From IMG/VR virus record IMGVR_UViG_3300018079_000030, positions 1-29,664 of that record: 29,664 bases of DNA; one strand, 5' to 3'. This stretch comes from a virus. Made by a program: the position numbers and the translations under genes. The notes under the pieces were generated by a model. The model saw only the letters and a program-made list of their open reading frames with translations. It was not told the DNA's origin and ran no database searches. This document shows, in pieces, positions 371 through 22,968 of the stretch (position 1 is the first letter of the stretch; each line of letters starts with the position of its first letter).

Positions 371-1656
371 AAGACCGTCGGCGCCCTGATGGACATCAGG
401 ACGGCCAGGCGATCGACCGGCGACGCGGTGGTGATCTGGATCTTCGGGCCGAGGGCGTCCGGCGGATTGTTCGCTACCGCCACCCACTCGCTGAAGGTTG
501 CGGCCCCGGCCGTCGTCATGGCTATGACCACGTCGGAGTCGCCCGCCATGATCGAGTTCGCCTTGACCGTACTGACCCCCGAGATCCCATCCTCGAAGAA
601 GACAGAGACCAGACTGCCGTTCATCCCGCCGGGGAACGCCGCGCCCTCCGAGAGTGACCCCTGATTTCCGCTCTGGACGACTCCGATCTGGGAGACGCTC
701 GAGACCTCCACCGGGATCGTCGTGCCGAGTATCTCGAACCCGAGGGGACGGAACTGAGGGTCCGTCACGGTCCTCACGCCCGTCGTGTCGGTGTTCAGGT
801 CCACGACCTGTACGTGCACGTCGGTCCCGCCCAGGCGGACAGTGATGACCATGATCTCCAGCGCGGACGCCGCGTTCTTGGTGCGGATGGTCCAGCCGGT
901 GCTGTCGAAACTGCGGAACTCTAGCCACGGGCCCAGAGTGACCGTGCCGGCCGAGGACGTGAGCCTGGCGGCGATCCCGTCGTTTCGCACTATCGCCCCC
1001 GCGGAGCTGGGGGATTCACGGTCCTCGGCGCAGATGCAGGCGCAGCCCTGGGTGAGGGAGGGGCTGCGTCCGGCGTACCCGACGGACATCATTCCTTCGT
1101 TCCCGTTGCCGTCGGCCACGAACGTCTGGTTGACGGAATAGACCTCGGCTAGGTCCCCGCGGAAGCCAGGTGCGGTGGTGGGGAAGTCTGCATCCTGCGT
1201 GGCCGACGGGGTGTAGCTGTCGACGTGGAAGTCGCAGTCGGCCCCGAAGTAGAAGTAGGCCATCCCGCGCAGGGCCGTGGCCGGAAAGTTCAGCCAATTC
1301 AGGTCAATCGAGTCGGTTCCCAGTGCGGTGGCCTCCGCCTCTCCGTCGATGGCCTGCCCCGTGGTGAGAGACATGTTGATGACGGTGGCGGTGTCGACTC
1401 GGTAGCCAGTATCGGTGGTGCCGGCGGTGTTGCCGTTCTCCCCGACGAAGGTGCAGCAGCGCTGACGCGTGCCGTCGTAGGCTCCCACGCTCCTCCGGGC
1501 GCCGGCCGTGATCGTCCCGACCGCCGTGGCGCCCGCGACGATGATCTTCACTCCCTTGGGGACCTTGCCGGGTCCTCCGGTGAGGGAGATCGTCTGAGCC
1601 GCGCCCGAGGTGTTGCAGACGAACGCCACGCTGCGGATGCCGAAGTCGCCTGCCAT
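1..1656 (-). CDS. Repeat-bearing virion appendage/tail-fibre-like protein (C-terminus beyond left edge)
   Basis: An open frame of 552 codons starts at ATG 1656 and has no stop before position 1, so the protein is longer than what is seen. Residues 1 to about 390 form a non-repetitive, Gly/Thr/Ala-rich, beta-looking region with several Cys residues and no signal peptide or membrane segment. From about residue 430 on, a 22-23-residue unit with the core PSGIASAEAFG recurs six times (DNA 2-369). I know repeats of this kind from phage tail and appendage proteins; their exact role is unknown. The gene lies 7 nt downstream of the sulfatase gene, at the end of the visible virion operon. A fibre or spike decorated with small beta-repeats is my inference. 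Adsorption protein is the best guess, but no receptor-binding domain is identified. Confidence 0.8.
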   Translation of the reverse strand, partial: MAGDFGIRSVAFVCNTSGAAQTISLTGGPGKVPKGVKIIVAGATAVGTITAGARRSVGAYDGTRQRCCTFVGENGNTAGTTDTGYRVDTATVINMSLTTGQAIDGEAEATALGTDSIDLNWLNFPATALRGMAYFYFGADCDFHVDSYTPSATQDADFPTTAPGFRGDLAEVYSVNQTFVADGNGNEGMMSVGYAGRSPSLTQGCACICAEDRESPSSAGAIVRNDGIAARLTSSAGTVTLGPWLEFRSFDSTGWTIRTKNAASALEIMVITVRLGGTDVHVQVVDLNTDTTGVRTVTDPQFRPLGFEILGTTIPVEVSSVSQIGVVQSGNQGSLSEGAAFPGGMNGSLVSVFFEDGISGVSTVKANSIMAGDSDVVIAMTTAGAATFSEWVAVANNPPDALGPKIQITTASPVDRLAVLMSIRAPTVFPSGIASAEAFGTPSMVQATILSPSGIASAEAFGTATLSATITLSPSGIASAEAFGNATITAGAVTLAPSGIASAEAFGNATITAGAVTLSPSGIASAEAFGTHEVLQGVFIFPSGIASAEAFG

Positions 1657-1663
1657 CGCGAGC

Positions 1664-2836
1664 CTACGCCCTCGGCGGGAGGCCGGCAAGGTACGCCGAC
1701 AGGTCAGCGTACGCCGCCTGCTGCTCTGGGAGCAGGAACGGCGGGGAGACCGGCGTCGTCTCGAGCGGGTCCGCCAGCAGGTCGTACAGCAGTTCTTGGT
1801 GAGACTGCTCGAAGTCCAGCACGCGCAGCTTCCACCGCGCGTCCCGGGCCATCAGGTCGCTGCCGGCCGCGCCGGGGCTCCCTGTGTCGTAGCGCTCGCA
1901 GGCGAGCCTGGCGCGGGAGAACATCGGGGCGGTGTCCAGGCCGGCACCGGAGGGGGGTATCGCGGCCTCTGCGAGGGAGGCGACGTTAGAGTAGACGTCG
2001 ACGCAGGAGAACAGGTCGGCGGACTCCGTGCCGACCGGCACGCCCGGCCCGGCGGCTACCGCCGGGACGTTCACGCCGGCGCGAGTGGTAGTGCCCTTGC
2101 CGGCCCCGGGGGTCCCGTTGTCGGACACGAGGATCACCACGGCGCCGGGGGCCGCGGCTCTAATCTCGCCCAGCGCGACGTCCACCGACTCGACCATGGC
2201 GAGGCGGCGCTGCTCCTGGGTCGGCAGGGGGCCGAGCGCGGTGTAGCGCCAGGAAGCGGGAGGGGAGTGGAAGGGCGCGTGCGCGGCCGAGAGCGCGACT
2301 GTCAGCAAGTAGGGCGCCTGGGCGGAGCCGACGTACTCGACGGCCGCCTGCACCTGCGCCTCGGTGGCGTACTGGGTGGTGTGGGTCGAGACGCCGTCGT
2401 CGATCCGGTCCCACGAGGAGTAGCTGCTCCCGGAGACGAGGTTTCCGAGGCAGCCGGCGAGCCAGCGGTCGTAGCCGCCGACGAGGATCGCGCCCAGCTC
2501 TGGGCGGTCGAACGAGGGGGACATCCCGGCGGCGCCCAGGTGCCACTTGCCTACCAGGGCCGTGGAGTAGCCGCGCGCCTTCAGCAGCCGGGGGAGCGTC
2601 GGCAGGTCTCTGGGAAGCCCCACGACATCGGAGCCTACCTCCTCGCCGATCCCCAGCCTACGGGGCAGGAGTCCCGTGAGCATGGCCACCCGCGACGGGG
2701 AGCAGCTCGGCATGGAGTGGTAGCTGAGCAGCGTCAGGCCCGCGGCGCGCATCTCGGCGATGCGAGGCGTCTGCGCGAGCTGTATATCGCTCCAGCCCAC
2801 GTCGTCCACCACGACGAGGATGATGCTCGGAGGCAT
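1664..2836 (-). CDS. Arylsulfatase-type sulfatase (alkaline phosphatase superfamily)
   Basis: A 390-residue protein with the full set of type I sulfatase motifs. The N-terminal metal site is VVVDD (Asp11, Asp12). C45-S-P-S-R49 followed by VAMLTG is the Cys-type formylglycine signature. VGKWHLG holds Lys97 and His99, HAPFHSP holds His186, and VSDNG holds Asp239-Asn240. K247 precedes the usual 'VP' strand. Enzymes of this family hydrolyse sulfate esters after a maturase turns the Cys into formylglycine; no maturase gene is in the window, so the host would have to supply it. There is no signal peptide, so it is cytoplasmic until lysis or packaged in the virion. It sits between a structural gene (11 nt upstream) and the appendage gene. 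No clear Shine-Dalgarno site precedes ATG 2836. Family call is firm; substrate (sulfated glycan) and virion location are inferred. Confidence 0.9.
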   Translation of the reverse strand: MPPSIILVVVDDVGWSDIQLAQTPRIAEMRAAGLTLLSYHSMPSCSPSRVAMLTGLLPRRLGIGEEVGSDVVGLPRDLPTLPRLLKARGYSTALVGKWHLGAAGMSPSFDRPELGAILVGGYDRWLAGCLGNLVSGSSYSSWDRIDDGVSTHTTQYATEAQVQAAVEYVGSAQAPYLLTVALSAAHAPFHSPPASWRYTALGPLPTQEQRRLAMVESVDVALGEIRAAAPGAVVILVSDNGTPGAGKGTTTRAGVNVPAVAAGPGVPVGTESADLFSCVDVYSNVASLAEAAIPPSGAGLDTAPMFSRARLACERYDTGSPGAAGSDLMARDARWKLRVLDFEQSHQELLYDLLADPLETTPVSPPFLLPEQQAAYADLSAYLAGLPPRA

Positions 2837-2847
2837 CTGGTACAGAC

Positions 2848-3264
2848 CTACAAGCGGAAGATCTTGTTCGCGCCGTTGTCCCAGGAGACGGTGATGTCGC
2901 CTCCGTTCGGGGTGACGGGCAGGTTCGTCGCCGTGTCGATGTAGGCGATCAGGCGCGAGGTGGATTCGGTGCCGGTATGCTTGTAAATCACAAGGGCCTC
3001 GCTCACGTCTCCGGTGACGGCGACGAAGGTCGCGTCGGAGGCGTCGAATACCCGACCTGTGACCGACTCGCCTGTCAGGGCGACGATGGCGACCCGTGCC
3101 GCCGCGGGCACGTCATCGAGGAAATCGTGCGTGGCGAGGTTGACCGTGTAGTCGGCCGTATCCACCAGGATCACGCGGATGTCGTCGGGCAGGTCGAAGT
3201 CGACCTGGGTAGCGGCCTGCGTCAGGATGTTGTTGACGAATGTGTCGTAGAGGGCGTTCGCTAT
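2848..3264 (-). CDS. Conserved phage structural protein, apparent AUA start
   Basis: The 138-residue product begins [M]ANALYDTF and ends GGDITVSWDNGANKIFRL. This is the pattern of a small virion-associated family in many phages whose members start MANALYD. The only standard start in frame is a GTG 90 nt further in, which would remove the conserved N-terminus. The codon in the expected place (3262-3264) is ATA, and no ATG, GTG or TTG lies between it and the preceding gene's stop. A GAGGA sequence about 11 nt upstream could be its ribosome site. The gene follows the connector gene by 7 nt. Family function is not known to me beyond 'structural'. The start is the uncertain part; a sequencing error of ATG to ATA is the alternative. 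Confidence 0.75.
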   Translation of the reverse strand: MANALYDTFVNNILTQAATQVDFDLPDDIRVILVDTADYTVNLATHDFLDDVPAAARVAIVALTGESVTGRVFDASDATFVAVTGDVSEALVIYKHTGTESTSRLIAYIDTATNLPVTPNGGDITVSWDNGANKIFRL

Positions 3265-3271
3265 GGGGCTA

Positions 3272-3820
3272 TCAGTCCTCGGCGACTGAGCGCCGGAAGC
3301 GGGGGATCAGGGTGTCTCCCGGCAGCGGGATGCTGTCGGGATCCTCGGGCGTGCCGTCGAAGGTCAGCACGCTCCGCGTGTCGCCGGGGGACTCGTCGCC
3401 GTCGCGCTCGAGCTCCTGCATGGCCTGCTCTATCTCCTCGAGCAGCCGGGCGATCTCGCGCTCTCGGTCGGAGCGCGGGCGCTCGCGGAACGGAGCCTCC
3501 TCGTTCCACCGGCGGTTGAGGTCTCCGGAGGCGTCCATGAAGGCGTTCGGCAGCTCCCGCAGGAGGACCACTCGTACCAGCTTCACCTCCGTCAGGCTGG
3601 CCAGGGAGCGCAGAACCTCGTCGTCGGAGTCGGGCGACGCGACCTCGGCGATGTCCAGCAGGCGCTGCACCGCCGGGCGCCCGAGGCGCCGGTAGAAGGA
3701 GAGCCTCGCCGAGGAGATGGCCTCGTCTACGATCGCCAGGGTGTCCTCGGAGCTGTCCGGGACGCTCGTGAGGCGCAGCCTGGACCTGATCCAGGCGTCG
3801 TCCTGTGCGAAGAGGGACAT
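3272..3820 (-). CDS. Probable head-tail connector/adaptor protein
   Basis: A 182-residue acidic, mostly helical protein. Its first 110 residues have several predicted helices. Residues around 115-140 (DREREIARLLEEIEQAMQEL) look like a coiled coil, followed by a Pro/Asp-rich tail. It has the size and gene position (two genes after the capsid) typical of gp6-like head-tail adaptors, but I see no diagnostic motif. Its start overlaps the stop of the preceding gene (TGATG), so translation is probably coupled. The role is inferred from position and fold character only. Confidence 0.65.
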   Translation of the reverse strand: MSLFAQDDAWIRSRLRLTSVPDSSEDTLAIVDEAISSARLSFYRRLGRPAVQRLLDIAEVASPDSDDEVLRSLASLTEVKLVRVVLLRELPNAFMDASGDLNRRWNEEAPFRERPRSDREREIARLLEEIEQAMQELERDGDESPGDTRSVLTFDGTPEDPDSIPLPGDTLIPRFRRSVAED

Positions 3821-4287
3821 CAGCCCTCGGGCGCCTGGAGGTCCTTGGAGGAGGCGACCCGGGCGGCCCCTCGGCGGGCCGCGCGCAGCGCGCCCTTGCT
3901 GAGGCGGTTGCGGTCCCTGGACCGAGCCGAGGGCGGCGCCAGCGCGGGCTCGTAGTCGCCCGTCAGGAGCTGCACCAGGGCGGCCTCGGAGAGCCCGGAG
4001 ACGTCCATCTCGGGGTCACCATCCAGAGCCATGACGAGAAGCTCGTCGCGGCTTCTGCCGGCCAGGGAGGCGGGGTCGTGGCGCCAGCGACCGACCGGGC
4101 CGGGCAGGGGCTCGACGCCGGGGGGAGGCGGGGCCTCGGCGGGACCGAGGATGCCCGCGGAGATCAGCCGCTCCACGTCCGCGGGCGGCAGGGCACCCTC
4201 GGGCACGAGCTGGCCCAGGCGCACCAGGACGCGGCGCGGGCCGCTCCCGGGGAGCTTCACGGTTCCGACCTTGACGACTAGATTCAT
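3820..4287 (-). CDS. Hypothetical virion-module protein, capsid-proximal
   Basis: A 155-residue protein with a basic C-terminus (residues about 120-150, many Arg/Lys) and a Pro/Gly-rich middle. Residues 30-50 (PEGALPPADVERLISAGILG) resemble a short helical motif seen in small head proteins located after the capsid gene. No family is recognised. ATG 4287 has a good ribosome site (GGAGG, 8 nt spacing) that lies just downstream of the strong RNA hairpin at 4306-4348. It overlaps the next gene (TGATG). A head-completion or neck role is possible from position alone. Confidence 0.6.
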   Translation of the reverse strand: MNLVVKVGTVKLPGSGPRRVLVRLGQLVPEGALPPADVERLISAGILGPAEAPPPPGVEPLPGPVGRWRHDPASLAGRSRDELLVMALDGDPEMDVSGLSEAALVQLLTGDYEPALAPPSARSRDRNRLSKGALRAARRGAARVASSKDLQAPEG

Positions 4288-4305
4288 TGGACAGCCTCCA
4301 CTGCG

Positions 4306-4348
4306 CCGACGGCCGAGACCCCGCTTGCGTCGAGGCCCCGGCCGTCGG
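4306..4348 (-). promoter_or_regulatory. Long intercistronic RNA hairpin after the capsid gene
   Basis: On the minus-strand transcript a perfect 9-bp outer stem (CCGACGGCC/GGCCGTCGG) continues into 8 more pairs (GGGGCCUC with GGGGUCUC, three of them G-U). A 9-nt loop (GACGCAAGC) closes it. The wobble pairs work only for the minus-strand RNA, which is the transcribed strand. No U-run follows; instead the GGAGG ribosome site of the next gene comes about 10 nt later. It therefore looks like an mRNA-stability, processing or translation-control element, or a leaky terminator, that lowers expression after the capsid gene. Confidence 0.6.
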
Positions 4349-4366
4349 GCTTCCGGTCCGAGGAGA

Positions 4367-5446
4367 CTAGACGACCTTCATCGAGACGTGCGTGTCGGGG
4401 CGACGGTTGCACGGGATCGGGTTGGACTCGATCAGGCTCATCATGGCGGAGGGGTCCTCCACCTCCCACGTCTTGGAGAAGCGCTTCGACTCCAGCACGC
4501 GGCCAGCGCCGATCGCCTTCATGTCGCGGATGCCGCCGAAGTACATGACGCGCTCGGCCTCGGGGGAGGCCCAGACGAACTCGGCATAATCAGGGCGGAC
4601 GAGGTCGACCAGCTCGCCCTGGGGGAAGGCGACGGTCTTCGGCATGCGGAGCTGGCGGCCGTACGACCACACGCGGACCTGGTGGTCGTACATGCCGAGG
4701 AACAGAGCGCCGTCGTCGCGGTTGACTGTCGTCAGATCGACCTGCCCCTGGCGGACGTTCTCGCCGCGGTACTCGAACTTGGCTCGCACGTTCGCGTTCG
4801 ACAGGAACGCCGCGCGGGCGTTGCGGCCTAGGATGGCGTCCGTGGCGCGGCCCTCGGAGAAGTCGTTGATGAGCTCGCTCGCGACGAGGAAGTCGTCGGA
4901 CGGCTGCCCGGTCGAGGCGGACCAGAGGTCGGCGCCGGCGAGGATGACCACCAGGGAGGGGTCGCGTCCGAAGTCGACCTCGAAGGAGACTCCGTCCTCG
5001 GCCACATAGGAGATGACGCCCGTGAGGGCCTGGCTCGACAGCCACTCCTCCGCGTTCGCGACCTTCCGCAGCATGCCGGACATCTCGCGGGCGAGGTATG
5101 CCCGCATCTGGCGATTCATGTCGCTCGCGTCCACGTGGATGCCGAATCCAGCGCGGCGCTTGTCGAGCAGGTCGGAGGGAGAGAGGGGCCGCTTGATGCG
5201 GATGTGGGCCGGCTTGACGATTCGGAAGTCCTCGCTGTCCCCGTCGACCATGATGGCTGCCCCGTCACGCTTCACGAAGGGGGCCATGCTGCGGCCGTCG
5301 CGGATCGTGGAGAGCTCGATGTCGACCGTCGGCTTAGTCTCCTCACTACCGTAGAGCAGGTTCTTGAGGAACGAGAGGGGGGACCGGACCTCGTTGACCG
5401 CGGCGGTCAGGGAGGCGGGGGAGAGGATGTCTGCGCTTGAGGGCAT
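4367..5446 (-). CDS. Major capsid protein, lambda gpE family
   Basis: A 359-residue protein, normal length for the Phage_cap_E family of HK97-fold capsid proteins. Matching features: the N-terminal segment FLKNLLYGSEE (about residues 26-36), the block with IELSTIRDGRSMAPFVKRDG (43-62), the KPAHIRIKRPLSP segment, and a C-terminal part ending in a beta-rich domain with RVMYFGGIRD and SNPIPCNRRPDT. It forms the head shell. It follows the protease/scaffold and decoration genes in the order used by many siphophages. ATG 5446 has no Shine-Dalgarno; a C-rich leader (GCCCCACCCCC) precedes it, shared with the decoration gene. Start supported by family N-terminus and by lack of an earlier in-frame start. 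Confidence 0.92.
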   Translation of the reverse strand: MPSSADILSPASLTAAVNEVRSPLSFLKNLLYGSEETKPTVDIELSTIRDGRSMAPFVKRDGAAIMVDGDSEDFRIVKPAHIRIKRPLSPSDLLDKRRAGFGIHVDASDMNRQMRAYLAREMSGMLRKVANAEEWLSSQALTGVISYVAEDGVSFEVDFGRDPSLVVILAGADLWSASTGQPSDDFLVASELINDFSEGRATDAILGRNARAAFLSNANVRAKFEYRGENVRQGQVDLTTVNRDDGALFLGMYDHQVRVWSYGRQLRMPKTVAFPQGELVDLVRPDYAEFVWASPEAERVMYFGGIRDMKAIGAGRVLESKRFSKTWEVEDPSAMMSLIESNPIPCNRRPDTHVSMKVV

Positions 5447-5464
5447 GGGGGTGGGGCGGTCGGC

Positions 5465-6208
5465 CTAGTGGAAGTTCGGGAGGCCCTGGACGTCGATGCC
5501 CTTCTCGCGGAGCGAGGAGCTCAGGAGTGCCTCGTTCAGGTCGGCGCGGGACTCGCCGGAGGGAACGGGGACGTCGGCCGCGTGGATCACGCCGCGCAGG
5601 AAGACGTTGATAATCTGCTGACCGGCGGTGCTGACCGCATGGGGCGCGTCCGGGGACCACAGGAAGGCGTCGATGTCGGAGCCGTCGGCGGCGTCCGATC
5701 CGCCCTGCGTGGGCGTGGCCAGGACGTGGTCGTTGCCCGTGATGCCCGTGAAGTCGCCGGTGATGTCGACGTTCTGGCCGGCGAAGGAGCCGCCCCAGGT
5801 CAGGGTCAGGACGTAGGAGGCGTCGCCCAGGTCTCCGGCCGCCCCGCTGGCGACTACGTCGCCGGGAGCGACGTTGGAGAGTGCCTCCAGCGCGGCTTGC
5901 ACGATCGCGGGAGTGGCGTCGAAGACGATGGCGGCCGTGGTTAGGCCGTCCACGGTCAGCGTGAACGTGCCGCCGGTGCCGGGCGTCGCGTTCGAGGTGA
6001 TCGTGTTCACCTCGTTCGACTGTCCGATCCAGACCTCGTACTCGTCGTCGGCGTCCTTGAAGTAGAGGGGCGTCAGGTGCTCCAGATCCGCGGCGGCGCC
6101 GAACTGGCCGAGGGTGCCGCGGATAATGCCGTCTTCGCGGGGGTAGGCGCGGAGGGTCGGGCGCTGATCGACGGCGGCGCCGAACAGGGACTCGGGGATG
6201 ATTGCCAT
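5465..6208 (-). CDS. Head decoration protein with Ig-like inserted domain
   Basis: A 247-residue protein. I chose ATG 6208 (MAIIPESLFGAAVDQRPTLR) because the longer frame adds 23 low-complexity residues. Residues 1-60 and the last 60 look like a lambda gpD-type decoration protein. Between them (about residues 70-160) lies an Ig-like or beta-sandwich domain with TLTVDGLTTAAI, AIVQAALEALSNVAPGDV and YVLTLTWGGSFAGQNV. This domain type is frequent in phage virion surface proteins. Inferred role: trimeric capsid cement displaying Ig-like domains. It lies 18 nt before the capsid gene. The leader has no Shine-Dalgarno but carries GCCCCACCCC. Confidence 0.75.
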   Translation of the reverse strand: MAIIPESLFGAAVDQRPTLRAYPREDGIIRGTLGQFGAAADLEHLTPLYFKDADDEYEVWIGQSNEVNTITSNATPGTGGTFTLTVDGLTTAAIVFDATPAIVQAALEALSNVAPGDVVASGAAGDLGDASYVLTLTWGGSFAGQNVDITGDFTGITGNDHVLATPTQGGSDAADGSDIDAFLWSPDAPHAVSTAGQQIINVFLRGVIHAADVPVPSGESRADLNEALLSSSLREKGIDVQGLPNFH

Positions 6209-6236
6209 GGGGTCGTTCTGGGGTGGGGCTCGGGTA

Positions 6237-7352
6237 CTAGTGGACGTTCCAGCCGGAGACGGCCTTCGACTCGCCAATAAAGGACTTGGCCAGCTCTAGG
6301 CCCTCGGCGATGTCCAGCTCGACCTGAGACTTCTCGATCGGGCTGCCGCCCGCGGCCGGGGCGTTGGACCTGCGCTGGGCCTTGAAGAGGCGAAGCTTCA
6401 GGTCGCGCACCTCCTGCGAGTCGCCCTTCTCGATGCCGGCATCCTTGTCGCTCGGCGCCGCGACCGCCAGGGCGGCGCGCCGCTCGGCGATCTCGTCGGC
6501 GGTCATCTTTCCCCCGGCGACGGCCTTGCGGAACTCGTAGGCCCGCACGGCCTTCTCGTACGTATCCAGCGCGGTCAGGTCGAGCGGGTCGCCAACGAAC
6601 GCCGGGAACTCCTCGACCCTCGGCTCGGGCGTCGGCTCGGGCGTCTCCACCTTCTCCGGGGCGGGTCGCACCAGTTCGGTGACGGACTTCACGAGGACGG
6701 TCTGGAGGCCGGCGAGACCGGCGCTGAAGGCGTCCATGAGCTGCTTGAGCTGTTCGGGGGTCATCGTGTCTTCGGGTCGCGAGGATGACTTGGTGATGAC
6801 CTGCTCCGGCACGCCCTCGCCGACGCCGAACAGGCTGACTCCGTCCCACTCGCCCCGAGCGCGGGAGGCGCGCAGGGCGGGATCGTCGATGTTGATCTGC
6901 ACGGCCGCGGCGCCCGTCAGGTCGCCGGCGGGGGTGCCGTCGTAGTTGCGCCAGTCCGCGAAGCGGGGATCGCTCTTCTGGACCGTGAACGCCTCGGCCA
7001 CGTACGCCTGCTCGCGGGAGAGGACCTTCCCGTCGTGCTCGATGTCCAGCTCCGCGCCGTTGCGCATGAGGCTATGGAGCATCTGTCGAACGACGCCCTC
7101 GTCGGCGACGTGCCGGTCCGCGTCCTCGCGCTCGGGCGCGTACATGACGGCTAGCAGGGTGCCCTCGTCCACGGCCTTCACCAGAGCGTCGAGCTGTAGG
7201 GTGCCGTCTGCCTTGTAGAGCGTGCACAGGCCGTTCTTCGCCTGGCGGCAGAGCGACAGGCGCCGGACCTCCGCCTTCTTGATACGGACCCGCCCGGCCT
7301 TGGAGAGGCGCAGAGGGAGGAGGCGCTGCCAGCGCTGTCCGAGGGAGAGCAT
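6237..7352 (-). CDS. XkdF-like capsid maturation protease with C-terminal scaffold region
   Basis: A 371-residue protein. Residues about 65-190 resemble the XkdF-type phage serine protease family: LLAVMYAPEREDADRHVADE, MLHSLMRNGAELDIEHDGK, AYVAEAFTVQKSDPRFADW and EWDGVSLFG. Residues about 195-371 are charged, helical and Pro/Glu-rich with LKLRLFKAQRR, as expected of a fused scaffold. Such proteins assemble inside the procapsid and cleave the scaffold during maturation. It is the first gene of the leftward virion operon, starting 100 bp from the divergent portal gene. The ATG 7352 start has a weak ribosome site. Family call is good; catalytic Ser/His assignment is not attempted. Confidence 0.8.
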   Translation of the reverse strand: MLSLGQRWQRLLPLRLSKAGRVRIKKAEVRRLSLCRQAKNGLCTLYKADGTLQLDALVKAVDEGTLLAVMYAPEREDADRHVADEGVVRQMLHSLMRNGAELDIEHDGKVLSREQAYVAEAFTVQKSDPRFADWRNYDGTPAGDLTGAAAVQINIDDPALRASRARGEWDGVSLFGVGEGVPEQVITKSSSRPEDTMTPEQLKQLMDAFSAGLAGLQTVLVKSVTELVRPAPEKVETPEPTPEPRVEEFPAFVGDPLDLTALDTYEKAVRAYEFRKAVAGGKMTADEIAERRAALAVAAPSDKDAGIEKGDSQEVRDLKLRLFKAQRRSNAPAAGGSPIEKSQVELDIAEGLELAKSFIGESKAVSGWNVH

Positions 7353-7370
7353 CAGGGGCGAAAAGGAATC

Positions 7371-7447
7371 CCCGGAATACGGTCGCCGGGAAAGGGGCCT
7401 GCCCTGTATGCTACAACATCCTTCCCACTAGGCAAGAACTTTCCGGG
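7371..7447. promoter_or_regulatory. Divergent promoter/operator region between capsid and portal operons
   Basis: This is the only divergent intergenic region in the window. Leftward: TTGCCT (7435-7430), 16-nt spacer and TAGCAT (7413-7408) form a sigma70-like promoter about 50 nt before the protease start. Rightward: TATGCT (7407-7412) overlaps it, but no good -35 is seen. A 7-bp inverted repeat, CCCGGAA (7371-7377) and TTCCGGG (7441-7447), brackets the region and could be an operator. All by eye; no transcription data. Confidence 0.35.
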
Positions 7448-7452
7448 AAACA

Positions 7453-8922
7453 ATGACTGACCGAGAAGAAGAGGGCGTTCCCAGGGATAGCATCGTGGTC
7501 GCGAGGGAGGTCCCGCCAGACCCGTTCGACGGCGCCGACCAGAGGACCCTGCTGCACCTCCTGAAGGCGGTCCGGCCGACGGGCGGCACGAATGTAGGCA
7601 CGGAGGTCGGCGCGAGGGCGCACCTGATCCACAAGGAGGCGTCGCGCCGGATGCGCGACCTGAACGCGACGCACGCGACCTGCCTGGACGCGAAGCGCTC
7701 GAGCTCCGTCGGGATGGGCCATCGCGACCAGGCGATCTATGAGGCCCTGGATCCACTCTGCCGCCACGGCTGGCAGGACGTGCTGGACTCGAGTGGGGAG
7801 GACATGACGGGGGAGGGCGAGGGCTTCATCGAGGTCGTGTGGACCCCGGAGCGCGCGAGGGTGCTGGCGATCAACCACCTCGACGGAGCGCAGGTCAACG
7901 TGGTCGTGGAGAGGCAGAACGACTCCGAGCAGGTTCACTACCAGGTGACCAGCAATATCGCCACCCGCGAGACGGTGGCGATGGCGGCGTGGGGTGACCT
8001 GCTGGACCTGAGGGCCCGCCACGAGGCGAGCGGAGGCACGGTCCGGAACGGCTCGATCGGGCGCAGCGACGGAGTGCTCGCCTCGCCGCTCGGCGGCAGG
8101 ATCGTCGACTCGGAGGTGATCCACCTGCGCACGCCGACGCCCCGGGATCCCTACATGGGCTACCCTGACTGGGTGTCGGCCACGCCTTTCATCGAGCTCG
8201 TGCAGGCGATGGTTCGCCACGAGTTCGACTTCCACTTCAACCGGGGCGTGCCGGAGCTCCTGCTGACCCTCATCGGGGGCTCCATCTCGGAGCCGGACTG
8301 GGAGGCCATCAAGTCGATCTTTCGCGCGAGCCAGGGGCCGGGGAACAGCCGCAAGACCGCCGCGGTCAGGTTGACCGGCAGCCCGGAGGACGTGAAGGTC
8401 CAGGTCGACAAGCTGGGCGAGGAGGGCGCGCGAGACTACTTCGGGGAGAAGGTCGACACGATGGCGATGCTGATAGCCACGGCGCACGGGGTGCCCCCGA
8501 TGCTCGCGAACATCCTCCTGCCCGGCAAGATCGGCGCCGCGAACGAGGGCCCGAACGCCCTGATGCTGTTCCAGAAGCGGAAGCTCGGGCAGATCCAGCG
8601 ATCCGTGTCTGCCATTCTGGCCCGCACCCTGGGTTCTGGGGTGCCGCTGAACAATCCGGACGATCAATCCCGAACGCTGACGGCTGCGCACTTCTTGGGG
8701 ACGAAGTACGTCGGGAAGCAGGTCGACCCGGACTCCCAGATGCCCATCTACCACGAGGTCGGGAACGGCTTCCGCACGGTTCTGGACGGCATGACGCTAG
8801 GCGCGCAGGACGCCCTGTCTAGGATGAAGGAGCCGATCGCGGGCTCCGGCCGGAATCCGGCGGACGGGCTGCTCGGCGGCGCGGACGACCGCAGGAGTGG
8901 AGACCCGAGGAGGAGCCGATGA
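7453..8922 (+). CDS. Phage portal protein
   Basis: A 489-residue protein of normal portal length. Recognisable parts: RDLNATHATCLDAKRSSSVG near the start, VIHLRTPTPRDPYMGYPDWV (middle), VRHEFDFHFNRGVPELLLTL, and DTMAMLIATAHGVPPMLANI followed by a PNALMLFQKRKLGQIQ segment. The order fits the PBSX/Phage_portal_2 type of portals. It forms the dodecameric ring for DNA passage at the head vertex. Unusually it is on the plus strand, divergent from the protease-capsid operon. ATG 7453 has only a weak ribosome site (GGGA). The last 25 residues are Arg/Asp/Gly-rich, and the stop overlaps the next start (ATGA). Confidence 0.88.
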   Translation: MTDREEEGVPRDSIVVAREVPPDPFDGADQRTLLHLLKAVRPTGGTNVGTEVGARAHLIHKEASRRMRDLNATHATCLDAKRSSSVGMGHRDQAIYEALDPLCRHGWQDVLDSSGEDMTGEGEGFIEVVWTPERARVLAINHLDGAQVNVVVERQNDSEQVHYQVTSNIATRETVAMAAWGDLLDLRARHEASGGTVRNGSIGRSDGVLASPLGGRIVDSEVIHLRTPTPRDPYMGYPDWVSATPFIELVQAMVRHEFDFHFNRGVPELLLTLIGGSISEPDWEAIKSIFRASQGPGNSRKTAAVRLTGSPEDVKVQVDKLGEEGARDYFGEKVDTMAMLIATAHGVPPMLANILLPGKIGAANEGPNALMLFQKRKLGQIQRSVSAILARTLGSGVPLNNPDDQSRTLTAAHFLGTKYVGKQVDPDSQMPIYHEVGNGFRTVLDGMTLGAQDALSRMKEPIAGSGRNPADGLLGGADDRRSGDPRRSR

Positions 8923-9609: not shown

Positions 9610-11019
9610 TCAGTCGCCTCTCGCCGCCAGGGCCTTCGAGAGCAGCGGCGCGCCGACACCTTCAAGCAGCCCGTGAACGTTCAAGCGCGGATCGCGGGGG
9701 TCCTGGATGGTACACGCCGAGTACCAGTTCAGCACGTCCACGCCGGCTGCCTCGGCTACGCGCCGGATACCCCTGTAGAGCTCGCCCATCCACTCCGTCC
9801 GCTGCGCCTCGATCGCCGCGCGGCGCCACGGGTGCCCATCCGCGAGCAGGGACTGTCCGGCCTCGTAGCAGGCGAAGTAGGGGACGCGGTGGCGCGCGAG
9901 GATCGCCGCGTGCTGGGCCAGGGGGCCCATCGGGTCTCGAGTGGGGTCGTTAATCCCGGTAGCGATCTCCTCCAGCCGCGCGAGGCAGCTCGCTCGGAGC
10001 TCGTCCTGCGTGGGGCACGAGCCGGTGGCCTCCCACTCCTCCTTGTGGGCCTTGAGGGGCGTCACGTAGAGCGCCGGGCCGGCCAAGTCGGGCGTCACGC
10101 CTAGACCCGCTAGCTCCGAGAGGAGCCTGTCCATGTGGGAAGGGACCGTCAGCTGCCCGCCGACGAACAGCCAGTACGGCCGCGCTCCCAGGAATCTCGG
10201 CTGGCCGAAGACCCGGTCGGCGACTCGCTTGAGGGTCTGGATCTCGCGGGCCGCGAACCTGTGCCAGGACCAGGCCACGACGTCCTCCGGGCGCCCAGGG
10301 TGGCCGTCCGGCTCGTGCAGCCAGCCATGCACCGGGAAGCCCGCATTCCAGATCTCGTTCACGTACTCTATGACCGGCGGCAGCTCGACGGAGTCGCGGA
10401 TCGCTACTAGGTACTCCTCGAGGCGAGTCTCGTATTCCGCGACGCTAAGTTCGAACCGGGGCGGGGCGTTCCACCAGAGGTTGCAGTGGAGCAGGCGGGA
10501 AATCTTCGCCTGAATCTCCACGGCCATCTCCTCGCCCTGAATCAGGTCAGAGGGGAGAACGCGACCTCTTGACCAGTCGGGGCGACGGTCTCGTCTGGCC
10601 TGCCAGCCGAGGTCCAGAGTGCGGAAGACGCGAGGTCGGAGCGAGGCGAGGGCTTCGAGAGACGGGATGTGCAGGCGCGGGGCCTGCGGCGTAAACGGGA
10701 GCACGTCGAGCATGCGCAGCGCAGCCGAGGTAGGTCGCCTCGTCCAGCTCAGGGACCCGGCCCCGGAGGGCCCAAGGATGACCAGCCAGTCACGGTAGGC
10801 CCGAGCCGCGTCGGAGATCGGCAGGCCCTCGAGCAGCCGCACCCCGTGCCGACGCCCGTCCTCGACGGGCCACCCTTCAGAAAGTAGGCTGGCCTCGCCA
10901 ATCGGCCTGCCGGCGTCGTCGAAGATCTCGAACCTCCGGGCGCGCGCGATCGGGCTGGCGAGCAGCGGCAGCGGGGAGGAGAAGCAGAAACTGGGATTCA
11001 GGCCGTAGTACGTGGTCAT
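9610..11019 (-). CDS. Clan GH-A glycosidase-like protein
   Basis: A 469-residue product from ATG 11019, which overlaps the previous stop (ATGA); the longer frame has an unlikely 30-residue extension. Two motifs fit a clan GH-A (beta/alpha)8 glycosidase. LPPVIEYVNEIWN carries Asn221-Glu222, the usual acid/base on strand 4. PYFACYEAGQS carries Glu386, a likely nucleophile on strand 7. Similar 'EY-NE-WN' proteins exist in bacteria and phages and are mostly uncharacterised. No signal peptide or carbohydrate-binding module is seen. It is the last gene of the leftward operon, after the metallophosphoesterase. Together with the sulfatase it suggests glycan processing, but it could also be a virion protein. 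Substrate unknown. Confidence 0.6.
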   Translation of the reverse strand: MTTYYGLNPSFCFSSPLPLLASPIARARRFEIFDDAGRPIGEASLLSEGWPVEDGRRHGVRLLEGLPISDAARAYRDWLVILGPSGAGSLSWTRRPTSAALRMLDVLPFTPQAPRLHIPSLEALASLRPRVFRTLDLGWQARRDRRPDWSRGRVLPSDLIQGEEMAVEIQAKISRLLHCNLWWNAPPRFELSVAEYETRLEEYLVAIRDSVELPPVIEYVNEIWNAGFPVHGWLHEPDGHPGRPEDVVAWSWHRFAAREIQTLKRVADRVFGQPRFLGARPYWLFVGGQLTVPSHMDRLLSELAGLGVTPDLAGPALYVTPLKAHKEEWEATGSCPTQDELRASCLARLEEIATGINDPTRDPMGPLAQHAAILARHRVPYFACYEAGQSLLADGHPWRRAAIEAQRTEWMGELYRGIRRVAEAAGVDVLNWYSACTIQDPRDPRLNVHGLLEGVGAPLLSKALAARGD

Positions 11020-12089
11020 CGGCGCAGGTTCGGCTTTCTCTTCGTCAGATATAGGAGCGTGTCGGACACTACGCCGTGCTTGGCGTCCATGAACAGCAGG
11101 CGCTGGCACGGGTCCCCCGCGGCGGCGAGCTGCTCCTTCGCGAACTCGTTGTCGGACTCGGTCGTGCCGTTCGCGTAGAACCTACGATACCCGAGGGTCG
11201 CCATAGCGGGCGTGTGGAAGTGGCCGAAGAGCAGGTTGTCCCACTTCTCGTCGATTGCGTCGATCCAGCCCCACGCTTTCTTACCGGCCCCGTACCAAGG
11301 GAAGCCTGCGAAGCCGCCGCTGATTTGGTGGCCGTGCACCATCAGGTTCCCCCAGTCGAACACGCGATCCACCACGTAGAAGTCCTCGGGAGCGATGAAC
11401 TCCAGTCTTGAGCGAAGTTCCTTCCTTGGGGCCTCCTTGGTCCCGAGCAGCGTAGCAAGCAGGACCTGGTAGGTCACGCGGTCCCAATTCGTGAGCGGGT
11501 TGGCCCGCGTGGACTTTGGCCCGTTGCGCCCGTGGTTGCCGGCCACGCAGAGGACCTTCACCCGCGGGAAGTGCTCGAGCGCGGTGAGGATCGCCCGCGA
11601 GAAGATCCGAGGGGCGTTCACGCACGCCTGGTCGAAGAGGGAAGAGTCGATCTCGTGCGCCTGATGCGGGAAGATGTCCTCCCCCTCGATCATGTCGCCT
11701 CCGAGGTAGACATGGATCTCGTCGACGCGCGCGATCTTGCGGCGCAGGTCGGCGATGTATGCGGCCTTCTGCACGGCTAGAAGCACTCGCTCCTCCGCGA
11801 CTTGCGTGTCGTAGGACTTAGTGATCTTCCCGATCTGGGTGTCGGAGAGGTGCAGTATTGCAATCTCGTCGTAACGGCCCCGGCCGCGACGCGGCGTCGG
11901 CGGGACGCGCAGGACGGGTGGGCTCGCCGCGAGGGCGGACTGCACTGCCTCGACGATGGTCGCCTCCCGCGATTGGGTTTTTCGCAGCCTCCGCTCGAGC
12001 ACGCGCACCTGGGAGCGGAGGTCCGCTACGGACTCGGCCTCGGCGTCCCTTGAAAGGAACTCCTTCAGGGCGGGATTCTTCTTGCTCAT
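11016..12089 (-). CDS. Calcineurin-like metallophosphoesterase
   Basis: A 357-residue product from ATG 12089 (MSKKNPALKEFL), which overlaps the preceding stop (ATGA). A charged coiled coil (about residues 15-50) precedes the phosphoesterase domain. Motifs seen in order: ILHLSDTQIG (about 78), YLGGDMIEG, CVAGNHGRNG, LMVHGHQISGG and LLFGHFHTPA. These give the usual two-metal site, except that motif I reads D-x-Q rather than D-x-H. Phage members of this superfamily are often annotated as Mre11/SbcD-like DNA nucleases or phosphatases; which applies here is not clear. Its place downstream of polymerase and resolvase genes favours a nucleic-acid role. Confidence 0.8.
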   Translation of the reverse strand: MSKKNPALKEFLSRDAEAESVADLRSQVRVLERRLRKTQSREATIVEAVQSALAASPPVLRVPPTPRRGRGRYDEIAILHLSDTQIGKITKSYDTQVAEERVLLAVQKAAYIADLRRKIARVDEIHVYLGGDMIEGEDIFPHQAHEIDSSLFDQACVNAPRIFSRAILTALEHFPRVKVLCVAGNHGRNGPKSTRANPLTNWDRVTYQVLLATLLGTKEAPRKELRSRLEFIAPEDFYVVDRVFDWGNLMVHGHQISGGFAGFPWYGAGKKAWGWIDAIDEKWDNLLFGHFHTPAMATLGYRRFYANGTTESDNEFAKEQLAAAGDPCQRLLFMDAKHGVVSDTLLYLTKRKPNLRR

Positions 12090-19254: not shown

Positions 19255-19523
19255 CGGATTCCCTTACGAGCATTGTAGTAGGAATCCAGTAGATCGAGCG
19301 CCTTGCGGAGAAGGGGACGCATGTCCTGCTTCCCCCAGAAGGTGACGGCGCTGGAGTCGTCGTCTCCAGGCCGGTGAACGAACGGCCCCTTGTGCTGAAG
19401 CCCTCCCACCGTCGCCGGCAGCTCAAGATAGAAGCGCAGCGCGGTGAATTCGTGGCAGTCGATCTCCTTCGAGATGATCTCGACGCGGTCGGTCATCTCC
19501 TCTGCGTAGACGTTGACCCTCAT
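19251..19523 (-). CDS. Conserved phage protein of unknown function (MRVNVYAEE family)
   Basis: A 90-residue product beginning MRVNVYAEEMTDRVEIISKE and containing DDDSSAVTFWGKQD (about 54-67) and a C-terminal helix PLLRKALDLLDSYY. Small proteins with the same start and the 'SAVTFW' segment are common in phage genomes, often near recombination or replication genes, with no known function. ATG 19523 overlaps the nuclease stop (ATGA) and the end overlaps the next start (GTGA). Confidence 0.75.
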   Translation of the reverse strand: MRVNVYAEEMTDRVEIISKEIDCHEFTALRFYLELPATVGGLQHKGPFVHRPGDDDSSAVTFWGKQDMRPLLRKALDLLDSYYNARKGIR

Positions 19524-22483
19524 CGCAGACCCTCCACGACTGTCTCCGTGAACTGGCTCGAGGCCAGGGAGCTGACGAGCGAGTCCACGTCAGGGTCCCG
19601 GACCCCGGCGACGAGCAGGACCGTACGGCCGAGGGACTGAGCGATGTCGTCCGCACGCTGCTTGAGCCGATCGCGGCGCTTGAACGGGTCCAGTTCCCAG
19701 TAGGAGGCGGCGCCCATGTCTTTAGCGAGCTCCGCACCGAGGCGCGCGAGCAGCTCCTGAGCGAGGAGAGTAGGGCGGTCGACGCCCTTCAGCTGCGAGC
19801 AGCCGATCAGGATCGTCATGCCTGCAGGCTTGCGACCTCGTTTGCTACCCTCGACTTTGTCGAGTGCCGCGACTATCTCAGGGGAAGGGGCTTCGCACTC
19901 AGCGGCGGCCGCGTGCGCGGCGGACGGAATTATAGACACACTTCCTGTTGCGGTCGTTGGGCCTGAACTTGCCATCGTGTGAATGGCGAGTACCTGAACC
20001 GTGGCCTGCTCCGCGGTCTTAGCTCCGAGAACAATCGGACCGATACGACTAGACCAAGCCTCCGGCGCGCCGAGCGCGAACAGGTCAGCGACCTTCTCCG
20101 GTCGCGAAGCAGCCTCGAAGCCCGACTGGGCATCGCCAGAGATCAGGTACATCGACGAGGTCGGGCGCTTGGTGCGCTTCGCGAGCGCGTCACAGAGCGG
20201 GCACGGCCGGCCCTTGGAGTTGAAGCCCGTCCCGCGGCACGCCGTGCACTGCGGGTTCGCCCACGGCGGCGCGTTGGACGGCGGCGGGGGCGCGGCCGGT
20301 GCCGAGGGCGCGACGCCTCCATTGATGCCCGGAGCAGTTGGTTGGATCACTGCAATGGGGACTACCTGCTGCGGTTGGACCTGAGACGCGGGCCTGGAGC
20401 CACGCGCTCTCGCGAAGATGTTGTCGCTCATTTCCTTCTCGGCCCTCCGGGCCCCCGTGGTTACGTTTGGCCGCGCGACCGGCGCGGCGGCAAGCTGACG
20501 CTCTACCCTACCGCGGTGGCCCTCGACAGTCGAGCGCCTTCCGCATATCTCCCGGAACGGGCAGCCACCGTACTTCGAGCAGACGTCCGTACCATAGGGA
20601 CCTGGCACGTCATCCCAGCGCTTGATCTCTCGGACGCGCAGCATCTCCGCCGTGCTCTCCTGGATCTCCGCCCAGCGTCCGGCCCACTCGTTTGTAGAGA
20701 CGATCGCCTCTATGCAGCGCGGGCCTCGTCCGTCGTCGAACTTCGGGAACTGGTTGTGGCGCACCGAGACCGGGCCGTCCCAGTCATCCAGAATCGAGGT
20801 CGCCGCAGCGTAGGTCAGGAGCTGCCTGTCCCTACCTAGGTAGTTCGGACTGGCAGAGCCGGGCTGCTTGAGGAAGCGGACGGAGCCCTCTCCGAAAGTG
20901 TTGTGGAGCACCACCCCCGAGCCTATCCAGGCGTGCGTCTCGGGAACAGATAGATCGAAGACAGGACACGGCCCGGCAGGGGCGATGCTGCGGATCTTCA
21001 CCCAGCGCACATCGTTCCGACCGGCACTTTTACGATGCCGCACACGAGCCTGGAGTTTTTGAAGGGCCGCCGCCTGAACCTCCCGCTTTCCAGGAATGGG
21101 CGGTAGCGCCTCCAGCAGCTTGGCCGCCTCTGTACCTGCAATTTGAAGACGCCAAGATTGGAAAACTTTGCCGTTCAAAGGGGTGCGCTGGGGGTACACA
21201 TTACCGACAACCCCCAGTCGGTACGCGAGGTGGCGAATATCCCGAATGAGTCCCTCATTCGCCAGAGTAATTATCACTTCAAGGCGCTTCGGGTTGATGT
21301 GCCCATCGCAAGCGATGAACCGGCTCAAGAACAGCACGCACTGTGCGTTTGACAGCCGATAGTAGTTAGCAGGCAGCCGCTTATTCGTGGACTTGTGGCC
21401 CTCCTGCTGCAGCGCCTTGAGCACTGCGTTCAAGCCCAGCACGGTTCGGGTGTAGGCGCGCCCCGCCTCGGTCCGGGAACCGAGCCTGCCGCCCAGCTCC
21501 ACAACCGCCTTTTCAAAATCCTCCCACACCTCTGACGACATATTCGTAAATGAAGCTGAGCACCTGCGCAGCTCCTGCGCTGAGCAGCCATCCGACATCA
21601 TACAAGCCAGAAAGCGAACCTCTGCGTCACTAGGCGCGTGCTCCTCCGCCGGAGCTGGTAAGGATCGCGGAACTCCCACCCTGTCCGCCTGCGTCAAGTC
21701 CTGCACGGGCACCCAACCACGTTCGGTAAAAACCGGATGATCCCACGACAGCACCACACGCTCGCCGGACATGAGAAGCAGTTCGGCGCAATCCTTGGTG
21801 CCACTGGGTAGGACCGTGCCGGGCTTCCACATCAGAGTACCAGAGCCATCCATAGAAACCGTGATGGCCGGTCCCAGATCGTCAGCACGGCGTCGCCCGT
21901 GTTGCAGGTCGTAGAACTCGGTCCCGGCGGCCACGCACTTGTGGTCGTGGATCGCGGGCGGCGAGCCCGGTACGAACACATCGATGAACCCGACGAGCTC
22001 GACACCCTCAATTACAGGTAGGCGCACCTCCCGCTCCAGCATGCGTCCGTCGCCGCGCTGCACTATCCCGCGCTCCACGGCCTGCTCGACTAGACGCCGA
22101 ATCAGCGCGGCCTCGTTCGGCGTGACGGTTTCCCTGCGACCCTTCTCCTCAACAGTCTCCCACCCGGATGGGTACACGTCGGCAGGGTCTCCAGGGCGCT
22201 GCAGGAGCAACGGGCTCTCGTCGCCGTGCACCTCCAGTCTATCGACCAGGCGGCAAGCCCGGGACTCTCCCACCGGCGGCACGCGACCATGGGCGTCCGC
22301 GCTCGCCCAGCGCTGCAGGCACTCGTGCAGGACCGCGCCGAATGTGAGGTACCCCCGCGGGACGCGCGGCAGGCGAGCGACCTTCTCTAGCCACCACTTG
22401 CGGCGGCAGTCATGGAACGTGTCGAGCTGGCTCGACGAGACGGTGAGAGGCTCGATCACCGAAATCTTTTGGGCTCTTTCCAT
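19520..22483 (-). CDS. Cas4/RecB-like PD-(D/E)XK nuclease with intein and extra C-terminal domains
   Basis: A 987-residue precursor from ATG 22483; 641 residues remain after removing the intein (183-528). The N-terminus SSSQLDTFHDCRRKWWLEK and YLTFGAVLHE match RecB/AddB/Cas4-type nucleases. The active site is GFIDVF (Asp168) and AIHDHK (Asp180, Lys182). Cys26 plus DVCSKYGGCPFREICG later make the one-plus-three Cys arrangement of a 4Fe-4S nuclease. After about residue 690 come a Pro/Ala linker, a zinc-ribbon CTACRGTGF/CPLC and a C-terminal alpha/beta domain (MTILIGCSQLKG) that I cannot assign. An internal ATG at 20431 with GAGAAGGAA just upstream could give a separate 303-residue C-terminal product, but its spacing is too short. 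Role: end processing in recombination. Its start overlaps the Mom-like gene by 28 nt. Confidence 0.85.
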   Translation of the reverse strand: MERAQKISVIEPLTVSSSQLDTFHDCRRKWWLEKVARLPRVPRGYLTFGAVLHECLQRWASADAHGRVPPVGESRACRLVDRLEVHGDESPLLLQRPGDPADVYPSGWETVEEKGRRETVTPNEAALIRRLVEQAVERGIVQRGDGRMLEREVRLPVIEGVELVGFIDVFVPGSPPAIHDHKCVAAGTEFYDLQHGRRRADDLGPAITVSMDGSGTLMWKPGTVLPSGTKDCAELLLMSGERVVLSWDHPVFTERGWVPVQDLTQADRVGVPRSLPAPAEEHAPSDAEVRFLACMMSDGCSAQELRRCSASFTNMSSEVWEDFEKAVVELGGRLGSRTEAGRAYTRTVLGLNAVLKALQQEGHKSTNKRLPANYYRLSNAQCVLFLSRFIACDGHINPKRLEVIITLANEGLIRDIRHLAYRLGVVGNVYPQRTPLNGKVFQSWRLQIAGTEAAKLLEALPPIPGKREVQAAALQKLQARVRHRKSAGRNDVRWVKIRSIAPAGPCPVFDLSVPETHAWIGSGVVLHNTFGEGSVRFLKQPGSASPNYLGRDRQLLTYAAATSILDDWDGPVSVRHNQFPKFDDGRGPRCIEAIVSTNEWAGRWAEIQESTAEMLRVREIKRWDDVPGPYGTDVCSKYGGCPFREICGRRSTVEGHRGRVERQLAAAPVARPNVTTGARRAEKEMSDNIFARARGSRPASQVQPQQVVPIAVIQPTAPGINGGVAPSAPAAPPPPSNAPPWANPQCTACRGTGFNSKGRPCPLCDALAKRTKRPTSSMYLISGDAQSGFEAASRPEKVADLFALGAPEAWSSRIGPIVLGAKTAEQATVQVLAIHTMASSGPTTATGSVSIIPSAAHAAAAECEAPSPEIVAALDKVEGSKRGRKPAGMTILIGCSQLKGVDRPTLLAQELLARLGAELAKDMGAASYWELDPFKRRDRLKQRADDIAQSLGRTVLLVAGVRDPDVDSLVSSLASSQFTETVVEGLR
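20900..21937 (-). mobile_element. Intein with LAGLIDADG homing endonuclease, in the nuclease active site
   Basis: 346 in-frame residues start at Cys (codon 21937-21935) and end His-Asn (codon 20902-20900), followed by Thr. Block A: CVAAGTEFYDL. Block B: VVLSWDHPVFTERGWVPVQDL with the conserved His. Endonuclease helices: FLACMMSDG and FLSRFIACDGHIN (two LAGLIDADG motifs). Blocks F/G: PVFDLSVPETHAWIGSGVVLHN shortened here to its start and end, giving the penultimate His and final Asn. All splicing residues are present, so it should be active. The DNA is visibly less GC-rich than its surroundings. Insertion is right after the catalytic Lys of the nuclease, a highly conserved site of the kind inteins favour. 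Confidence 0.93.
22362..22452 (-). repeat. Nuclease 5' end, copy 1 of direct repeat
   Basis: This stretch encodes the first about 30 residues shared by the intact nuclease and the chimeric gene. It is repeated at 23285-23374 with only a few substitutions and a 1-nt deletion in the second copy. The 9 nt ACGCGCGGC at its left end are shared with the primase gene at 23932-23940. Confidence 0.9.
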
Positions 22484-22968
22484 ACGAGCTCAGGTCGCTT
22501 TCGTAGCACTGAAGCATCTCGCGGCGTGAGAACATCGTGACGTCTTGGGTCCCGATCCAGTAAGTATGCCCACCGATCCTTTACTGACTCGATCTTGACA
22601 TTCCAGCAGCCGTTCCCAGACGGCGGCGGACGCAGCCGATGCCACGTCGGGCACCAGATCCAGTTACTCGCCTTGTATAGAGCGCCGGTATGACCCACCG
22701 ACGGATCGGAGTAGCTGATGACAGTAGAGGTCTTGCCTCGCAATGCACGTGCGACGCGACTCCACTGTGAAGAACCGGCGTTCTTCCCACCCACCAGGCA
22801 CCAGCGAGAGAGTTCTAGCCAGTCCTTCGGTAAGTGTCGCGATGCCGGCCGGCTTAGCACAAGGGCCCCATCTTCGTCGAGCCAACAAAGGACCGCTCGC
22901 CGACACGGCCCTAAGTAATACTTAGCCTCCAGAAGAGGATTCACCTCAGCCACCTGACACCAGCTCAT
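22456..22968 (-). CDS. Mom-like DNA adenine modification acyltransferase
   Basis: A 170-residue product from ATG 22968, overlapping the chimera stop (ATGA) with GTAGGA upstream. It resembles the GNAT-related Mom family: NPLLEAKYYLG (10-20), LELSRWCLVGGKNAGSS (51-67), then SYSDPSVGHTGALYKASNW (85-103), the most diagnostic block, and ESVKDRWAYLL (127-137). Mu Mom converts adenine to N6-methylcarbamoyl-adenine to resist restriction. The DNA looks somewhat less GC-rich than its neighbours, and the gene is bounded by duplicated ends of primase and nuclease, both signs of recent acquisition. Its end overlaps the nuclease start by 28 nt. Family call is by pattern only. Confidence 0.72.
   Translation of the reverse strand: MSWCQVAEVNPLLEAKYYLGPCRRAVLCWLDEDGALVLSRPASRHLPKDWLELSRWCLVGGKNAGSSQWSRVARALRGKTSTVISYSDPSVGHTGALYKASNWIWCPTWHRLRPPPSGNGCWNVKIESVKDRWAYLLDRDPRRHDVLTPRDASVLRKRPELVWKEPKRFR

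Follow-up and report, generated by a model that had tools for sequence, protein, structure and literature searches.

The window analysed here is a linear virus contig of 29,664 bases, and its open reading frame at 1664-2836 is a complete type-I (S1) sulfatase by domain, catalytic residues and predicted fold. The gene lies inside a cluster of virion genes and is followed by an appendage gene, whose N-terminal 425 residues are referred to as AppN. The pairing of sulfatase and AppN is recurrent in divergent uncultured phages, yet not obligatory. Chance is excluded as the source of the sulfatase identification and of its gene context. The most likely explanation, with a probability of about 45%, is that a catalytically competent S1 sulfatase associated with the appendage desulfates a host glycan at adsorption.

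The original prediction was an intact sulfatase with all catalytic motifs, including CSPSR, and this was borne out. The ORF runs on the minus strand from an ATG at 2836 to a stop ending at 1664. The Pfam Sulfatase profile (PF00884) matched the 390-aa protein with an E-value of 1e-30 (107.5 bits, cut-off 25), and residues 3-289 aligned onto positions 1-299 of the 301 in the profile, which corresponds to a full-length domain. The activation motif C/S-x-P-x-R was present as C45-S-P-S-R49. The protein also contains the full set of D11, D12, C45, R49, K97, H99, H186, D239, N240 and K247, the positions known for metal and sulfate binding in S1 sulfatases. When its sequence was searched against solved structures, iota-carrageenan sulfatase, GALNS and arylsulfatase A were matched.

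The structure was modelled by AlphaFold2 with 19 phage homologues as input (pLDDT 84.9, pTM 0.89). The model showed the alkaline-phosphatase-type alpha/beta fold with a C-terminal subdomain. It matched 7stv with a Z score of 40.9 over 369 residues, nearly the whole chain, and PsS1_19B and i-CgsB with 40.4 each. Because many S1 subfamilies tie in this comparison, the substrate is not readable from the fold. The enzyme shares the whole-length fold (Z 38-41), the catalytic and metal residues and the C-x-P-S-R motif with PsS1_19B, Ps i-CgsB, the Pedobacter yulinensis enzyme 7stv and the S1_16 AMOR sulfatase. In contrast to these sulfatases, to which it is only 20-30% identical, it has a shorter C-terminal part (390 aa in all), no signal peptide, and a location in a phage tail-gene cluster.

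Table 1. Position of the sulfatase gene and its neighbours in the window.
Feature	Position	Strand	Basis
S1-type sulfatase, 390 aa, without signal peptide	1664..2836	-	PF00884, structure model, catalytic set
C45-S-P-S-R49 codons, formylglycine site (C-x-P-x-R)	2690..2704	-	translation
AppN, all-beta N-terminal region of the appendage protein encoded just downstream of the sulfatase gene	382..1656	-	ATG at 1656; model; homologues beside sulfatases
PSGIASAEAFG repeats in the C-terminal part of the appendage ORF, truncated where the contig ends	1..381	-	phrog_13352, phrog_8501 minor tail proteins
'Tail wing arm' homologue (phrog_644), directly upstream of the sulfatase	2848..3264	-	9d93_Ra E 2e-22; phrog_644 4e-37
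Conserved structural-module gene, 72% identical in L002	3272..3820	-	
Conserved gene of the structural module (41% identity to L002), with a weak match to head-tail connectors	3820..4287	-	
Major capsid protein (Phage_cap_E)	4367..5446	-	Pfam 1.7e-41; phrog_29 4e-52; 76% in L002
Capsid-adjacent protein, major-tail-like domain by PHROG	5465..6208	-	78% in L002
XkdF-like head maturation protease	6237..7352	-	PF14550 3e-7
Portal protein	7453..8922	+	TIGR01540 8e-12; phrog_12 6e-10

The gene had been placed inside a virion-gene cluster from the start, and the neighbourhood agreed with this (Table 1). The minus-strand order is protease, capsid-associated protein, capsid protein E, two small conserved genes, the phrog_644 protein, sulfatase and appendage. 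Only 11 nt separate the tail-wing-arm gene from the sulfatase and 7 nt the sulfatase from the appendage gene, as in a tight operon. On the upstream side, the gene product is homologous to the arm of the mycobacteriophage tail wing and matched the 'Tail wing arm, gp31' chain (Ra) of PDB 9d93. This entry is presumably that of mycobacteriophage Bxb1 (Freeman et al. 2025). Relatives of this protein were found in 416 phage records, chiefly phages of mycobacteria and Pseudomonas. Unlike the window, the annotated genome of mycobacteriophage Bigfoot has the arm gene without a neighbouring sulfatase. On the downstream side, the C-terminal repeats of the appendage ORF (1-1656) matched minor-tail PHROGs (6e-24). 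The start of the tail-wing-arm gene at about 3264 is non-ATG and was placed by comparison with L002, a contig from another metagenome; at this aligned position the window carries an isoleucine codon (3262-3264, minus strand), and no ATG, GTG or TTG.

From the portal through to the appendage, L002 keeps the gene order of the window, with a sulfatase in the corresponding slot. An AppN homologue directly follows the sulfatase in L002, L066 and L101. Scanning viral contigs with the single window sulfatase sequence gave no match; relatives surfaced when alignments were used. Further loci were collected with the sulfatase alignment alone, and the AppN profile was built before they were inspected. 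AppN was detected immediately downstream of the sulfatase in seven new loci (L115, L116, L119, L120, L122, L123 and L125; E 1e-24 to 1e-51). In all ten AppN-paired relatives, the AppN homology begins 9-61 nt past the sulfatase stop. A pattern scan of the viral collection found 15 stretches; the bacterial-looking ones (L099, L102, L106-L108, L111 and L112) were kept out of the phage evidence. In L101, an HNH-endonuclease-like gene (1565-2074) is inserted immediately ahead of the sulfatase.

Sulfatases without an adjoining AppN were found in L093, L113, L118, L121, L124 and L104, and the locus of L117 is cut by the contig end. The genes of L118, L121 and L124 are still amid head or packaging genes, and the protein encoded directly upstream in L118 belongs to Pfam Gp80 ('podophage GP4 fiber I'). 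Conversely, AppN occurs without the sulfatase in L080 and L065, and an unrelated 404-aa protein stands between the tail-wing-arm homologue and AppN in L083. The sulfatase slot, empty in two phages and otherwise filled in a third, thus behaves as an exchange site. PHROG 19870, a family of unknown function, matched the window sulfatase at 2.5e-12, so a few known phages have sulfatase-like proteins; neither function nor virion placement is recorded for this family. The claim that phage-borne sulfatases are rare was right for cultured phages; among uncultured ones, the sulfatase-appendage pair recurs.

AppN was predicted to be an all-beta protein (pLDDT 82.5, pTM 0.88). Its sequence had no match in Pfam, PHROG, PDB or 50,697 phage records, and its fold had no clear match in the PDB. 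It weakly resembled the single-chain trimers of C1q and adiponectin, with Z scores of 6.6 and 5.4, below the trusted level. Neither the 241 genomes searched in one phylum nor the 247 in another contained AppN, a negative that is uninformative because no AppN-positive genome is known. In L115 (5458-7170) and L122 (13511-15058), a further AppN-like protein, diverged from the first, is encoded some 2.3-2.5 kb farther downstream, which gives these phages two appendage paralogues.

Among 19 phage sulfatases with about 30% identity, D11, D12, C45, R49, G96-H99, H186, P188, D219 and D239-G241 are invariant, and K247 is nearly so. The maintenance of the catalytic and metal set at this divergence indicates that catalysis is under selection. 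Some members have another residue in place of the proline of C-x-P-x-R, with CxQSR in L115, L116, L117 and L105, CSASR in L118 and CSLFR in L066; their metal ligands are still invariant.

Comparison of close relatives suggested that the sulfatase is exchanged. Between the window and L002, most proteins of the head module, those of the capsid and tail wing included, are 72-78% identical (76-78% for the capsid and tail-wing proteins), versus 33% for the sulfatase; the protein labelled 'prot' is 63% identical. In a tree that combined 18 phage sulfatases with 23 others, L002 falls in a clade with support 99 and the window sulfatase lies outside it. Given the similarity of the capsid and tail-wing proteins, one of the two phages has probably had its sulfatase replaced. 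Different sulfatase clades in close relatives are as expected of a swapped host-interaction cassette. A phylogeny against bacterial sulfatases had been proposed as a check. In the tree, the phage copies group together, but with a basal support of 33 and limited bacterial sampling this no more than suggests a single origin. Across eleven phages, the sulfatase and AppN distances are correlated (Mantel r 0.65, p 1e-4), partly through one cluster. The sulfatases of L115 and L116 are 82% identical and their AppN proteins 41%, so the two do not always co-vary.

A search for a formylglycine-generating enzyme (PF03781) in the window and 16 related records, all of them possibly incomplete, was negative. 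Oxidation of Cys45 would then fall to the host, in line with the predicted dependence on a host-supplied enzyme. Judged by their start sites, the sulfatases seem to come in two forms. The window, L115, L116, L117, L119, L120 and L105 encode sulfatases without a leader. Strongly hydrophobic leaders were found in 10 of the 18 relatives with a readable N-terminus (L002, L101, L093, L113, L118, L121, L122, L123, L124 and L125), two of them with a lipobox-like cysteine, and the leader of L066 is Tat-like; these were judged from start sites and hydrophobicity rather than by a trained predictor. A leader-bearing sulfatase would exit the cytoplasm, so in those phages export or membrane attachment fits the enzyme better than a role in the virion. 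The leaderless window enzyme is compatible both with virion carriage and with release at lysis. In L093, a 2171-aa internal-virion-like protein (2343-8858) is encoded upstream of the leader-bearing sulfatase, whose motif is CTPYR.

Based on these results, we infer that the sulfatase would be a late product, made alongside the virion proteins, and would act as partner to the AppN encoded next to it. Its Cys45 would be converted in the cytoplasm by the host's own formylglycine-generating enzyme. The enzyme would then remove sulfate esters from a sulfated glycan that the appendage encounters, either on the host cell or in its surroundings. During adsorption it would most likely be a component of the tail appendage or be bound to it. 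The position between the tail-wing-arm homologue and AppN, the same in L002, L066 and L101, argues for a partnership with the appendage. The missing signal peptide of the window enzyme also speaks for this explanation. The leader-bearing relatives, whose enzymes would be exported rather than packed in the cytoplasm, the lack of a virion fusion or recognisable attachment domain, the six or so sulfatases that are not beside AppN and the uneven divergence in L115 and L116 count against it. More tentatively, the two genes may form an attachment and receptor-modifying pair, in which AppN attaches to a sulfated glycan of the host, and desulfation of this glycan by the partner enzyme allows particles to move, enter or leave. 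If true, the cassette would be the phage counterpart of the attachment/receptor-destroying enzyme pairs of animal viruses.

Ranked next is a role as a receptor-destroying enzyme, in which an exported or released sulfatase desulfates the glycan bound by AppN and prevents progeny from sticking to debris, or prevents superinfection. The signal-peptide-like leaders in about half of the family, including those with the lipobox-like cysteine, would fit this role, and so would a gene that is paired with an appendage protein and exchanged among relatives. Consistently, the sulfatase sequences showed no fusion to a virion protein and no recognisable virion attachment domain. However, the window copy and six relatives are leaderless, and in these phages such an enzyme would act only after lysis. 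We regard this role as less likely than desulfation at adsorption by an appendage-associated enzyme.

The gene could also be an auxiliary metabolic gene that takes no part in host contact and scavenges sulfate from sulfate esters of the host or the environment. The protein is a sulfatase, and glycan-degrading bacteria are rich in such enzymes (about 150 matches in one Verrucomicrobiales genome). However, a metabolic gene would be expected outside structural modules, and this one lies in a virion cluster with AppN synteny in ten relatives. No further sulfur gene was seen in the window, and external substrates would be out of reach of the leaderless enzyme during growth. This explanation is improbable.

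Equally doubtful is the idea that the protein belongs elsewhere in the alkaline phosphatase superfamily, for example as a phosphonate monoester hydrolase or phosphodiesterase, or has only a structural role. A weak Phosphodiest match and the altered activation motifs of the six relatives listed above could be read in this way. Against it, the window protein has the canonical CSPSR and retains Lys97, His99, His186 and Lys247, its nearest folds are all S1 sulfatases, and the metal ligands do not vary even in the altered-motif copies. That a bacterial gene was joined to the phage by assembly, as the metagenomic and linear nature of the contig might allow, is almost certainly wrong: L002, which comes from a different dataset, and nine further phages share the order, GC3 (0.918) matches that of the phage genes (0.88-0.93), and a scan of genome contigs found only distant bacterial sulfatases, the best being about 28-35% identical. 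An assembly chimera was rejected because of the conserved synteny.

Known phage enzymes acting on surface sugars cut, lyse or deacetylate chains. Like the virion-associated capsule depolymerases and tailspike enzymes (lyases, glycosidases and deacetylases), the window sulfatase is encoded in the tail/appendage cluster, the receptor-binding region, and is exchanged among relatives. Unlike them, the putative enzyme would take off sulfate in place of cutting or deacetylating the chain, is encoded by a separate unfused gene, would need a host-made formylglycine, and is a candidate virion protein by its gene position. The phage 'FGE-sulfatase' proteins, which are targets of diversity-generating retroelements, have a formylglycine-generating-enzyme or lectin fold and are not sulfatases (PMC12724379); their likeness to the window sulfatase is the annotation word alone. 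A literature search returned host enzymes or formylglycine-generating-enzyme folds and no paper on a virion-module sulfatase, and a recurrent, exchanged sulfatase-appendage cassette in uncultured phages is apparently unreported in the searched literature.

If the main explanation is true, the sulfation of surface or matrix glycans would be a barrier or receptor on which phages act. It would also indicate hosts with sulfated polysaccharides and their own formylglycine-generating enzymes, and host range would be determined in part by a host modification enzyme that activates a phage enzyme. Gene families left unnamed by annotation pipelines would gain a function.

Several other features were observed elsewhere in the window. 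The 499-aa protein at 9610-11109 (minus strand) is 64% conserved in L002 and had no Pfam, PHROG or PDB match; its EYVNEIWN stretch recalls the catalytic loops of glycoside hydrolases. A 987-aa ORF at 19520-22483 (minus strand) carries an intein (TIGR01443, intein-bearing helicase/RecA profiles) within an apparent PD-(D/E)XK nuclease, and 22456-22968 (minus strand) encodes a Mom-like DNA modification protein (phrog_1384, 6e-14). The short ORF at 22965-23378 is an apparent hybrid of two other ORFs. Its N-terminus copies the start of ORF 19520-22483 (70 nt, 99%; 22384-22453 and 23306-23375), and its remainder is a copy of the 3' end of ORF 23612-26263 (300 nt, 86%; 22992-23291 and 23639-23938), which looks like a partial duplication, a recombination or an assembly effect. 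At the contig end, 28907-29664 (minus strand) carries short tandem repeats, which read PRPGRVRAHRG in one frame and LAPALAEYERTV in another.
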